From Candidatus Uhrbacteria bacterium (GTDB lineage: Bacteria > Patescibacteriota > Patescibacteriia > UBA9934): 41,789 nt of DNA. The DNA lies in contig CALRGY010000008.1 of NCBI GenBank assembly GCA_943358395.1, positions 1-41,789 on the forward strand. Reading direction: 5' to 3'. Below the pieces are notes generated by a model. That model did no database searches. It saw nothing but the letters and a program-made list of their open reading frames with translations, and was not told the DNA's origin. Shown here in pieces: positions 6,829-41,397 of this stretch. The position numbers were made by a program, and so were the translations under genes. Position 1 is the stretch's first letter; the number at the start of each line of letters is the position of its first letter.

Positions 6829-6838
6829 GGAAAATTAA

Positions 6839-6963
6839 TAGGACTTCCTCATTTTGTCTATTTTCGACTCAGATCATCGGAAAATCGTTCAACGTACCGT
6901 TAAGTACGTCTCACGAATTTTCCTCGATCTTCATCGAAACTAGCCTAAAATGAGAAAGTCCTA
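6839..6963. repeat. Palindromic repeat A, copy 1 (125 bp)
   Basis: The element is flanked by TAGGACTT and AAGTCCTA and can fold over its whole length: an outer stem of about 20 bp, a middle stem and an inner ACGTAC-N6-GTACGT hairpin. It has the same length (125 bp) as copies at 22886, 23165 and 26038. It sits just after the coiled-coil gene and directly before a terminator. Confidence 0.9.
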
Positions 6964-17540: not shown

Positions 17541-17675
17541 GAGCAGCCAGATCCTGAGGCTTCGCCGACCTGTCCCTCGAAGCTCGAAGAGCGAAGTGGG
17601 AAGGACCTCGAACGAACCTACTGGTAAACGATTCGGAGCGTGAGGCATGGGAGTCTTTTGAGTAGGTTGTGAATC
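17541..17675. repeat. Left arm of an inverted repeat (tRNA-Lys duplication)
   Basis: The core 17639-17675 is the reverse complement of 17960-17996 with one mismatch in 37 bp. Weaker similarity continues to 17541, where AGCCAGATCCTGAG matches the far end of the right arm. No gene lies inside. Confidence 0.85.
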
Positions 17676-17682
17676 CAGATGT

Positions 17683-17720
17683 GAACTCTCCCCCTGCCAA
17701 GGGGGAGTTGGAGGGGGTCT
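17683..17720 (+). repeat. GC-rich palindrome C, copy 1
   Basis: GAACTCTCCCCCT, a short loop, then GGGGGAGTTGGAGGGGGTC. It has the same plan as the copy inside uvrC at 40575 and the pair at 39223 and 39283. It lies between the two arms of the tRNA-Lys inverted repeat. Confidence 0.8.
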
Positions 17721-17959: not shown

Positions 17960-18060
17960 GATTCACAACCTACTCAAAAGACTCCCATCCCTCACGCCTT
18001 GGACCGTTTACCTGTCGTCTTATTCGAGGTCCTTCGCTTGCGCTCAGGATCTGGGCTGCC
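17960..18060. repeat. Right arm of an inverted repeat (tRNA-Lys duplication)
   Basis: The core 17960-17996 mirrors 17639-17675, and the arm extends to CAGGATCTGGGCTGCC at about 18060. The 17721-17959 stretch between the arms holds no credible gene; it is AT-balanced sequence with only short ORFs. Confidence 0.85.
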
Positions 18061-22001: not shown

Positions 22002-22888
22002 CAGTGATGTGGCATCACGAACACGGTGTGCATACACGATATGTTGCACCGAATCGTGCACGTATTGCGTTGGCATTGTGCGGGGCAGCGCTTGTTCTTG
22101 GTGTGATTGGTGGGGGCGCATGGTTTTTTTGGACAGGGTGGAAGAGTGGCGCGGTGCCCGTATTCTGCGAGCGATTAGCGTTTGTGCCCGTGGGATATGC
22201 GGATGGGCATGTGTTGTGGTTTGCGGATATTGCGCGGCTTGCGCACGGCATTGCGGCAGCAGATGCTCGGACGCAGGTAACGGAAACGGATTATATGCAA
22301 GCGATTGATGGGATTATTCGCCAGCATGCGCTTGAAGATATTGCACGCGAATATCATGTTGTTGCCGGAGGGAACGATGAGAATGATACGTACACGAGGA
22401 GTGCTCAAGAGTCGTTTCAGGCGTTGGCAGGGTGGAGCGGTGCAGAATATGAAACGTATATTACTGCCCCACTTTTGCTTTCTCGTGCGGTTGAACGCGT
22501 GGTATTGCATGAAGAGGTGTTTCAGCAGCAGGCACGTGCACGGCGTGATGCGTTGCGGGAAAAGCTCAATTCCGGCATTGCATTCGCCGATGTTGCACGA
22601 GAGTATTCGGAAGACCCTGTTACCGCACAAACGCAAGGAAGTTTTGGATACGTGCTTCCCGGGGATGTAGACGCCGCTTTTCTCCCCGTATTTTCCCTTC
22701 CTCTGAACACAATATCTGACGATATTATTACCGATGATGCGTATTGGCTGCTGCGGAGCGAGAGTACGGTACGCGATGAAAGTGGCATGCGTTTCTTGCT
22801 TCGGGGTATTGCGGTAAAGAAAGAAACTCTTGCACACGTTTTAGACGAAAGCGTTGCGAACATTGTTCCCTATGTGTGGGTACGATAG
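21998..22888 (+). CDS. Membrane-anchored parvulin-type prolyl isomerase
   Basis: A 296-residue SurA/PpiC-like protein. It has one N-terminal membrane helix (about 24-48), a helical SurA-N-like region (about 65-165) and a parvulin domain (about 180-265; G-I-A-F-A-D-V-A-R-E-Y-S-E-D-P and G-S-F-G-Y-V-L-P-G-D). These enzymes help fold exported proteins. The stop TAG is the first three bases of a 125-bp palindromic repeat, so the present C-terminus (V-W-V-R) is set by that insertion. It is the last gene of the murD operon. Confidence 0.85.
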   Translation: MTVMWHHEHGVHTRYVAPNRARIALALCGAALVLGVIGGGAWFFWTGWKSGAVPVFCERLAFVPVGYADGHVLWFADIARLAHGIAAADARTQVTETDYMQAIDGIIRQHALEDIAREYHVVAGGNDENDTYTRSAQESFQALAGWSGAEYETYITAPLLLSRAVERVVLHEEVFQQQARARRDALREKLNSGIAFADVAREYSEDPVTAQTQGSFGYVLPGDVDAAFLPVFSLPLNTISDDIITDDAYWLLRSESTVRDESGMRFLLRGIAVKKETLAHVLDESVANIVPYVWVR

Positions 22889-23010
22889 AACTTCCTCATT
22901 TTGTCTCTTTTCGGCTTGCTGCGTCGAAAATGTGCTCACCGTACTATAAAGTACGCCTCGCTCATTTTGCTCCTTGCGCGCCGAAAATAGCCTAAAATGA
23001 GAAAGTCCTA
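22886..23010. repeat. Palindromic repeat A, copy 2 (125 bp)
   Basis: TAGAACTT to AAGTCCTA, with central GTAC-N6-GTAC. It is the copy with the most changes in its middle section and supplies the stop codon of the parvulin gene. Confidence 0.9.
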
Positions 23011-23164: not shown

Positions 23165-23289
23165 TGGAACATCGTCATTTGAGGCTATTTTCGATGAACC
23201 AGGAAGAAATATCGTGAGACGTACTTCTTGGTACGTTGAACGAATTTCTGACGCAGTGAATCGAAAAGAGACCAAATGCCGATGTTCCA
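23165..23289. repeat. Palindromic repeat A, copy 3 (125 bp), between two tRNAs
   Basis: TGGAACATCG to CGATGTTCCA, with central ACGTAC-N6-GTACGT. The outer arms differ from copy 1 at several places on both sides at once, so pairing is kept. It lies in the opposite orientation to copies 1 and 2, between tRNA-Gly and tRNA-Thr. Confidence 0.9.
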
Positions 23290-23293
23290 TTTT

Positions 23294-26034: not shown

Positions 26035-26037
26035 AGG

Positions 26038-26162
26038 TGGAACCTTCCCATTTTGCCCATTTTCGGCTTGCATCATCGGAAACTCGCTCAACGTACCGTT
26101 AGGTACGTCTCGCGAGATTTCCTCGATGCGCACCGAAACTGGTCGAAAATGAGAAAGTTCCA
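26038..26162. repeat. Palindromic repeat A, copy 4 (125 bp)
   Basis: TGGAACCTT to GAAAGTTCCA, with central ACGTAC-N6-GTACGT. It begins 3 bp after ftsX and ends 10 bp before the next start codon. Confidence 0.9.
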
Positions 26163-28081: not shown

Positions 28082-28100
28082 ATTGCGATCCTGTTAGTAT

Positions 28101-28210
28101 TAGGACTTTCTCATTTTAGGTTAGTTTCGATGAAGATGATCTTTCTATTCGTCCAAGCGATGAATCGTTGGACAGGATCGAGGATATCGCCAATTCGCAT
28201 AGTCTAAATG
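28101..28210. repeat. Palindromic repeat A, degraded copy 5
   Basis: The first 37 bp (TAGGACTTTCTCATTTTAGG onwards) match the other copies closely. The middle is replaced by an unrelated hairpin, GTCCAA to TTGGAC (about 28155-28178), and only CATAGTCTAAATG near 28195-28207 recalls the right arm. It runs into the end of the C39-like gene. Confidence 0.6.
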
Positions 28211-29647: not shown

Positions 29648-29691
29648 ACCAACAAAATCCCTACGACCGAGATCGTAGGGATTTTGTTGGT
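29648..29691 (-). terminator. tRNA-Gln terminator sharing the CCA end
   Basis: A perfect 19-bp stem (29648-29666 with 29673-29691) and 6-nt loop. Its 5' side on the minus strand includes the tRNA's discriminator base and CCA, so terminator folding and acceptor-stem folding meet at the same bases. Confidence 0.85.
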
Positions 29692-39179: not shown

Positions 39180-39222
39180 GAGTGCCTTGTTCCATTCGGA
39201 TTCCCGTCCCTTTTCGGCTGCA

Positions 39223-39262
39223 GCCCCCTCCTTACTCCCCTATAAATGGGGGGGAGGGTACT
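39223..39262 (-). repeat. GC-rich palindrome C, copy 2 (inverted)
   Basis: Minus strand reads ACCCTCCCCCCC-ATTTATAGGGGAGTAAGGAGGGGG. It is in inverse orientation to the copy at 39283. The two are nested in one larger palindrome with CAGCCCCCTCC and GAGGGGGCT at about 39220 and 39327. Confidence 0.75.
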
Positions 39263-39282
39263 CGGTGATGAATCTTAATTGT

Positions 39283-39322
39283 GAACTCCCCTCCATTTAT
39301 GGAGGGGTCGGGGGAGGCGGGG
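39283..39322 (+). repeat. GC-rich palindrome C, copy 3
   Basis: GAACTCCCCTCC, ATTTAT, GGAGGGGTCGGGGGAGGCGGG. It shows the same order of arms as the uvrC copy. The whole 39180-39436 stretch holds only these repeats and a terminator. Confidence 0.8.
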
Positions 39323-39369
39323 GACTGAGGGGGCTCGGGAGAACCAGCGAATTCGAACAGTCAGTATCT

Positions 39370-40062: not shown

Positions 40063-41397
40063 ATGATTCCTGAGTCGATCCGCATCCTTCACGGCGAATT
40101 ACCTGATAGTCCGGGGGTGTATTTGTATTACGACGCGAATTATCGACTGCTGTATATCGGCAAGGCAACGAGTCTAAAGAAGCGGGTGGGGTCGTATTTT
40201 ACTAAGGCGCACAACAGCAGGATTGCCGATCTTGTCGCAAATATTGCGAGCATCGAGTACGTCCAAACGCCGACGGTTATCGAGGCATTGGTTCTTGAAT
40301 CGAACCAGATCAGAAAGCATCAGCCGCCGTATAACATTCTGTCGCGCGATGATAAAAGCTTTTTGTATTTGTGCATTACGAATGAAGATTTCCCGAAGCC
40401 GTTGTTTTTCCGGGGTTTAGACCTTGAACGCATGGGCATTCAGCCGTTTAGTCGAGTGCTGTCGCCTGTGGCAAAGAAGAAGTTTCTTGCCGTATTTGGT
40501 CCGTATATCAGTAGTAGATCGTTACGAACGGCGTTGAATTTGGTGAGAAAGTCGATTCCGTGGAGTGTCTGCGAGAACCCTCCCCCTGCAAAGGGGGAGT
40601 CGGAGGGGGTTCCTCGCCCCTGTTTCGACGCCCAGATTCATCGGTGCCCTGGGGTATGCACGGGTTCGATTTCGAAGGTTGATTATCGAAAAATTATTCG
40701 TCAGCTGATGCAGTTCTTTGAAGGGAAGAAGACATCGATTCTCATGCAGATGACGAGGGAAATGAAGCGTGCGGCGATAGCGAAAGACTTCGAGCGTGCT
40801 GCGGGTTTGCGGAATAAGATTAACGCCTTAGAGCACGTCAACGATGTGGCGTTGATTACGCGGGATGATGATTGGGATGGGGGAAGGGAGATCGGAGGGC
40901 TCCAACGCATCGAAGCCTACGACATCGCGAATATCTCTGGGACGTCGACGGTTGCATCGATGGTGGTGTTCGAGCATGGGCAACCTAAGAAGAGTGCGTA
41001 TCGCAAATTCAAGATCAAGAGCGTTGAGGGTGCGAATGACGTTGCCGCGATGGAGGAAGTGATGCGTCGGAGACTTCATCGATTACGCACGTCGCCGATG
41101 ATGTGGCCGCTTCCTGATGTGATGGTGATCGATGGTGGTGAGGGGCAGGTGAATCGGGTGAATGCGGTTCTTGCTGAGCTGGGATTGACTATTCCCGTTA
41201 TTGGCATCGCGAAAGGATTCGATCGGAAGCAGGATCGGCTGGTATACGATGAATCGAATGCCGATCTTCAGAAGATTGCTGCGTCGAGTAAGGAGATTCT
41301 GCAGAAAGCCCGCGACGAAGCACATCGTTTTGCTGGCGCGTATCATCGTGTTCTTCGATCGAAAGCCTCGGGCATTATCTTGAAGCATCATCGTTGA
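40063..41397 (+). CDS. uvrC: Short UvrC-type excision endonuclease
   Basis: A 444-residue UvrC. The GIY-YIG nuclease domain (about 12-95; G-V-Y-L-Y-Y-D, L-L-Y-I-G-K-A, E-A-L-V-L-E-S-N) makes the 3' cut; the Cys-rich segment with R-P-C-F-D-A-Q-I-H-R-C-P-G-V-C (about 185-199), UVR motif (about 210-260) and RNase H-like domain (about 280-440; D-I-A-N-I-S-G, V-I-D-G-G-E-G-Q, D-E-A-H-R-F-A) follow. The C-terminal tandem HhH domain of the about 600-residue E. coli protein is absent. Residues about 172-184 (N-P-P-P-A-K-G-E-S-E-G-V-P) come from an in-frame palindrome C. The 3' end overlaps the next gene by 10 bp. Confidence 0.93.
   Translation: MIPESIRILHGELPDSPGVYLYYDANYRLLYIGKATSLKKRVGSYFTKAHNSRIADLVANIASIEYVQTPTVIEALVLESNQIRKHQPPYNILSRDDKSFLYLCITNEDFPKPLFFRGLDLERMGIQPFSRVLSPVAKKKFLAVFGPYISSRSLRTALNLVRKSIPWSVCENPPPAKGESEGVPRPCFDAQIHRCPGVCTGSISKVDYRKIIRQLMQFFEGKKTSILMQMTREMKRAAIAKDFERAAGLRNKINALEHVNDVALITRDDDWDGGREIGGLQRIEAYDIANISGTSTVASMVVFEHGQPKKSAYRKFKIKSVEGANDVAAMEEVMRRRLHRLRTSPMMWPLPDVMVIDGGEGQVNRVNAVLAELGLTIPVIGIAKGFDRKQDRLVYDESNADLQKIAASSKEILQKARDEAHRFAGAYHRVLRSKASGIILKHHR
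40575..40612 (+). repeat. GC-rich palindrome C, copy inside uvrC
   Basis: GAACCCTCCCCCT, GCAAA, GGGGGAGTCGGAGGGGGTTC; length 38 bp. The frame stays open and adds about 5 residues net over the E. coli spacing between the Cys and R-P-C. Confidence 0.85.

Follow-up and report, generated by a model that had tools for sequence, protein, structure and literature searches.

A REP-like palindrome in frame within uvrC and other core genes of a Candidatus Uhrbacteria genome

The uvrC gene of a Candidatus Uhrbacteria bacterium carries a 38-bp palindrome that is read as part of the coding sequence, which raises the questions of how such a sequence came to lie within a DNA repair gene and whether it is an isolated case. 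To our knowledge, coding palindromes have been regarded as a curiosity mainly of Rickettsia, and we know of no mover for them. The window analyzed here is the whole stretch of 41,789 nucleotides containing this uvrC, corresponding to contig C8 of a 912-kb genome (G000, 97.6% complete); the genomes to which it was compared are mostly metagenome assemblies.

The palindrome in uvrC and its counterparts in relatives

The uvrC gene (window positions 40063–41397, plus strand) encodes a predicted protein of 444 residues with a GIY-YIG domain, a UVR motif and an RNase H endonuclease domain (UvrC_RNaseH; Pfam PF01541, PF02151 and PF08459, respectively), with orthologues in 56 of 60 relatives. The palindrome at 40575–40612 (plus strand, GAACCCTCCCCCTGCAAAGGGGGAGTCGGAGGGGGTTC) comprises an 8-bp stem (CTCCCCCT/AGGGGGAG), a GCAA loop, an outer ACCC/GGGT helix and an asymmetric bulge, and belongs to the TGCAAA subtype of the family described below, with a covariance model match at 40570–40615 (48.3 bits, E 8.8e-9). 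The original prediction held that the palindrome keeps the reading frame and adds a peptide between the first cysteine and the R-P-C of the UvrC Cys segment, and both points were borne out: the ORF is open through the copy, which encodes NPPPAKGESEGVP (residues 172–184), and the predicted peptide spanning the insert contains NPPPAKGESEGVPRPC. The insert is closely preceded by Cys170 (codon 40570–40572, plus strand; identified from the sequence and by orthologue comparison) and followed by Cys187, Cys195 and Cys199 (codons within 40621–40659, plus strand), which form invariant columns in 21 UvrC sequences. The resulting motif is C-x16-C-x7-C-x3-C, in which only the first spacing is altered, x7 and x3 being conserved. 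By analogy with the E. coli enzyme, these cysteines would be expected to bind an Fe-S cluster.

Three UvrC orthologues from the same genus (81–84% identical) read CE[HQEGG]RPC, CE[YQEGG]RPC or CE[SGKK]AC in this region and have no palindrome in the linker, and uvrC is 24 or 30 nt longer than the same-genus orthologues that lack it. No orthologue was found with the same residues in the absence of a palindrome at the DNA level. The linker between the first and second cysteine varies freely in length among orthologues, and the exact empty site cannot be reconstructed because the linker differs in further ways as well. In a moderately confident AF2 model of the protein (mean pLDDT 78.8, pTM 0.41), pLDDT was below 50 at residues 94–98, 175–182 and 263–278 and at the C-terminus. 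The third of these stretches falls in a second permissive linker, located after the UVR motif (40849–40902, plus strand), in which the sister species G002 carries an in-frame copy of the same family (SPPAMGESEGA) and G004 a different repeat; both of the UvrC linkers that receive elements are thus modelled with pLDDT below 50. UvrC carrying the insert probably stays functional.

Palindromes of the same architecture and with different sequences were found in the first-to-second Cys linker of UvrC in six genomes (the present one, G010/L050, L063, L082 with two, L088 and L092), and for L063, L082, L088 and L092 the family concerned is dispersed through the respective genome. At the same linker, other inserts were found in L032, L077, L089, L097 and G020. 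As a separate observation, UvrC of other Uhrbacteria (L023/L052, L389 and L390) contains the in-frame repeats AAAAGTTAAAAGC (giving SEKLKAKS) and NSEQGTGNSEQGTG.

A dispersed family and its in-frame copies

The 20-bp core of the palindrome, CTCCCCCTGCMAAGGGGGAG, is present in 19 exact copies genome-wide, with two more copies having two mismatches, and a reversed-pattern control returned none. A covariance model (R1) built from 42 copies and used with a cut-off of E ≤ 0.001 matched 99 copies in G000, 8 to 28 in four genomes of the same genus (G001–G004), and hardly any or none in the majority of the other genomes searched, giving G000 by far the highest copy number among them. The element measures about 38–39 bp and consists of a hairpin followed by a repeat of its 3' arm (GGAGGGGG). 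A second subtype, with an ATTTAT loop, is represented by about 41 exact copies in G000. This distinction bears on the copies which had been listed as the same palindrome at 17683, 39223 and 39283: the first of these (17683–17720, plus strand, TGCCAA loop, 53.7 bits, outside long ORFs) is indeed of the uvrC subtype, whereas the intergenic copies at 39278–39323 (plus strand, 62.8 bits) and 39219–39266 (minus strand, inverted relative to the former, ATTTAT-like, 36.6 bits) belong to the second subtype of the same family.

The window also contains other repeats. A separate dispersed repeat of ~126 nt was found at 6838–6963, 22885–23010 and 26037–26162 and, on the minus strand, at 23175–23291 and 28100–28137, two of the copies adjoining tRNA genes. 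Inverted repeat arms of 76 nt (17600–17675 and 17960–18035, 84% complementary) flank a composite repeat region near tRNA-Lys, and a perfect 19-bp inverted repeat with a 6-nt loop (29648–29691) touches a tRNA-Gln gene.

To assess coding potential, all six frames of the 99 copies were screened for one that is open and flanked on both sides by gene-like codon usage, and the candidates were then compared with the four same-genus genomes. In total, 27 of the 99 copies (26 sites in 24 genes) were found to be in frame with homologous protein sequence on both sides, placing the family in at least 23 genes other than uvrC. Besides uvrC, the targets named through NCBIfam are greA, uvrB, mutY, ligA, radA with two copies in tandem, smc, dnaX, ileS at two sites, pheT, an epmA/lysS-like synthetase (genX/epmA), lepA, gatA, mnmA, truB, miaA, and ksgA at two sites. 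The rest, named by inspection where a name is given, comprise a gene that weakly matches ribulose-phosphate 3-epimerase, a membrane protein resembling O-antigen ligase, two proteins resembling glycosyltransferases and three without a name. Compared to orthologues without a palindrome, greA is 30 nt, mnmA 39 nt and gatA 9 nt longer, all multiples of three as in uvrC. Relative to the gene, 16 of the intragenic copies are sense and 11 antisense, and the element is read in several frames, giving peptides as varied as PPPAKGESEGV, LPLTKGESEGV, SPIYGGVGGG, SPINGGE and LPLQRGSKEG, among others. The use of both orientations and the differing peptides indicate that what spreads is a DNA sequence open in most frames, and not one particular peptide. 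Coding-like copies in grpE, in two secreted proteins (L002 and L014) and at C12:29484 lacked two-sided orthologue support and were not counted, and those lying a short way 5' of the probable topA and rsmI starts were excluded as 5' extensions of the ORF.

When the same sites were inspected in the four sister species, a recognizable palindrome, often of another family or orientation, was present in at least one of them at ~20 of the 25 sites with orthologue data, as judged by eye. The gatA, mnmA and greA sites are occupied in G000 only, and the truB element is common to G000 and G003. The smc linker holds a second palindrome family (SGHPREGGDP) in three species and the family of G000 in two, while the uvrB linker holds the second family in two species, two copies of the G000 family in one, and is short in one; the ligA, miaA, pheT and radA linkers follow the same pattern. 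Every insert observed at the compared sites preserves the frame. These comparisons, made between species and not between near-identical strains, showed no insertion accompanied by an exact empty site and a target duplication. At several sites the ancestral linker seems to have been replaced rather than merely interrupted, and the element copies might be old and decaying. The second family (TCATCCCCGCGAAGGCGGGGATCCAG; peptides SGHPREGGDP and VIPAQAGIH) was seen in frame at the same linkers of sister species in L284, L286, L289 (smc), L290, L292 (uvrB) and L364 (dnaX), and G002 and G004 have genes with an in-frame third family (GACGGCCCGGCGGGCCGTC; L327, L336 (miaA), L317, L318 and L344).

Comparison to described palindromic elements

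The original prediction likened the insertion to the coding palindromes of Rickettsia and noted these as known from that group only. The likeness holds for the mode of action, but not the restriction, as Di Nocera et al. (2013) list palindromic REPs within genes of several bacteria, uvrA, uvrB and truB included (PMC3733652). These intragenic REPs, of the GTAG and CGTC superfamilies, are found in O. terrae, R. conorii, Thauera and other bacteria; many of them lie in DNA repair genes and truB, and RNA modification genes are likewise noted as targets (PMC3733652). The Rickettsia elements (RPEs), which also code in frame, are described as some 150 bp long and as each encoding a conserved peptide (PMC10969869). 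Like RPEs, the element described here is a dispersed palindrome occurring in spacers and in frame in many unrelated core genes, where it adds peptide, and truB and uvr genes are targeted in both groups (PMC3733652, PMC10969869). In contrast to RPEs, it measures 38–39 bp instead of about 100–150 bp, is found in Patescibacteria, which sets it apart from RPEs as these are described, and gives varied peptides from several frames and both orientations, whereas each RPE family has one conserved peptide. With REPs of the GTAG and CGTC superfamilies it shares a length of 20–40 bp, palindromic structure, dispersal, high copy number and occasional location in genes. It differs from them in that its stem flanks are CGNGAACC and GGGGGT, with no GTAG or CGTC tag, in the third arm repeat 3' of the hairpin, and in bracketing DUF559 genes; further, the Pfam family of the REP-associated tyrosine transposases (RAYTs), PF01797, is present in relatives and has no match in G000. 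On the grounds of size, tag, frame use and missing RAYT, the element falls outside the described RPE and intragenic REP families, which it resembles in mode of action and not by family membership. The literature searched, which included few subscription journals, yielded no paper on coding palindromes in Patescibacteria and no relevant one on DUF559 genes with palindromes.

Origin of the palindromes and a candidate mover

The uvrC palindrome belongs to a dispersed family, is inserted in frame in coding sequence and is absent from sister orthologues, and other palindromes recur at the same linkers in sister species. We read it, with a probability of roughly 0.86, as one copy of a mobile REP-like element that has spread to about 100 places in the genome, some of them within genes. 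Copies that landed inside genes would survive where they are in frame, free of stop codons in the frame used, and located in a surface linker tolerating added residues, and the gene product would thereby carry a loop of 10–15 residues rich in Pro, Gly and Glu. The copies were presumably moved by the action of an enzyme.

A candidate for this enzyme is a DUF559 protein. G000 encodes two (C19:801–1121 and C11:17960–18274), each bracketed by two inverted element copies (C19:766–1216 and C11:17922–18364; L225 and L243), and two element copies in this genome run into the DUF559 gene ends; loci of this kind fall in the ranges L224–L246 and L372–L387. In G001 (L232), the bracketing element is of the exact subtype present in uvrC, and in G010 the searched pattern has just two matches, namely the pair flanking the DUF559 gene of that genome. 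Bracketing was quantified as an inverted-repeat score across the DUF559 gene, with the same geometry shifted by 750–900 bp as control. For 24 DUF559 loci at the order level, the median score was 20.5 compared to 9.0 for controls, with scores of at least 18 in 14 loci and in none of 78 controls; for 29 loci at the phylum level, the medians were 14 and 9 and the counts 7 loci and 0 of 110 controls. Among 16 loci from outside the phylum (plasmid-collection records; Cyanobacteria, Deinococcota and Proteobacteria), nine scored 17 or more, with a maximum of 104, compared to 3 of 64 controls, the bracketed genes being from Cyanobacteria, Deinococcota and Alphaproteobacteria. Brackets are weak in Azospirillum brasilense and Synechocystis, and five of the 16 (Photobacterium, Sinorhizobium K101, N. 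gonorrhoeae, Shinella and Methylobacterium) show none. An alignment of 30 DUF559 sequences contains invariant E, D, E-x-D-G, H, D and R-Q. A profile search matched 3hrl (NGO0050; E 4.4e-35) and the homing endonuclease I-Bth0305I (3r3p; E 1.6e-5), and Foldseek with the DUF559 model retrieved the same structures (E 7e-8 and 1.2e-4) as well as Vsr (1vsr; E 0.01).

From this genetic association and fold, we tentatively propose, at somewhat short of even odds, that a DUF559 endonuclease gene set between a palindrome and its inverted counterpart makes up a mobile element of a widespread class as yet undescribed, of which the palindromes represent the non-autonomous form. The nuclease would spread them by cutting either target sites or the hairpin, after which repair would copy the element into place. 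Such a system would parallel RAYT/REP but employ a homing-type enzyme, and the in-frame palindromes in core genes would be its footprint. EDxHD is an accepted family of homing endonucleases (PMC3943268); the DUF559 protein shares the fold of its member I-Bth0305I and of Vsr and conserved acidic and His residues, and differs in being a near stand-alone catalytic domain located outside any intron or intein and bracketed by palindromes. Against a role as mover, the DUF559 protein VsrA of Caulobacter has been reported as a Vsr-like mismatch-repair nuclease (PMC12907096), a DUF559 match is absent from some genomes with many copies (G004, G014 and G017), and the five unbracketed loci outside the phylum likewise count against it.

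The palindromes could also have spread with no dedicated enzyme, the hairpin DNA being copied by template switching or captured in break repair and permissive linkers keeping what arrives. Linkers of relatives, whether the same or others, harbor several unrelated repeat types (two further palindrome families as well as simple repeats like AAAAGTTAAAAGC or GGGAACAGGGAACA), suggesting that the site filters whatever arrives; we nevertheless consider this host-driven origin rather doubtful, as it leaves unexplained both why one conserved 38-bp sequence reaches about 100 copies and why DUF559 genes are symmetrically bracketed across phyla. Spread by a Y1 (HUH) REP-associated tyrosine transposase, since lost from G000 or acting from relatives, would fit the general form of a short dispersed palindrome that is sometimes found in genes (PMC3733652), and a search of 26 genomes found Y1_Tnp genes in 16, the four same-genus species among them, while G006, G009, G011 and G015 lack both Y1_Tnp and R1 copies. 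It is unlikely, however, given that G000 has the most copies yet no Y1_Tnp match, that G026 has six R1 copies and no Y1_Tnp, that the stem lacks the tags of the two REP superfamilies, and that the elements bracket DUF559 genes (in a flank survey of DUF559 genes only).

That the uvrC hairpin is kept for regulation, as a terminator, a translational pause or a protein-binding site, is very improbable: a stable hairpin could form in the transcript, but its fold (-23.8 kcal/mol, z-score -1.3) is by itself unremarkable for the composition, the element occurs in both orientations across many unrelated genes, and sister orthologues lack the element or carry a different palindrome. Chance drift of a low-complexity linker, or an assembly error, could be suspected because this linker is variable in every orthologue, but can practically be dismissed considering the 19 exact cores compared to none in the control, the frame preserved at 26 sites and the same pattern in five independently assembled species.

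A mobile element, possibly of a new kind, would lie behind the palindromes. In this streamlined 0.9-Mb genome of the candidate phyla radiation, coding palindromes are present in no fewer than 24 core genes, and many of these sites hold different palindromes in its sisters. Comparing them offers a way to ask which linkers of proteins tolerate added sequence and at what rate, and the inserts matter both for annotation and for aligning marker genes such as ileS, uvrB, lepA and truB. The association of palindromes with DUF559 over several phyla provides a concrete, testable candidate enzyme for bacterial repeats of a very common class. On a plasmid of Sphingomonas parapaucimobilis (L381), a DUF559 gene with inverted palindromes is situated between sufB and sufC, like an inserted cassette.
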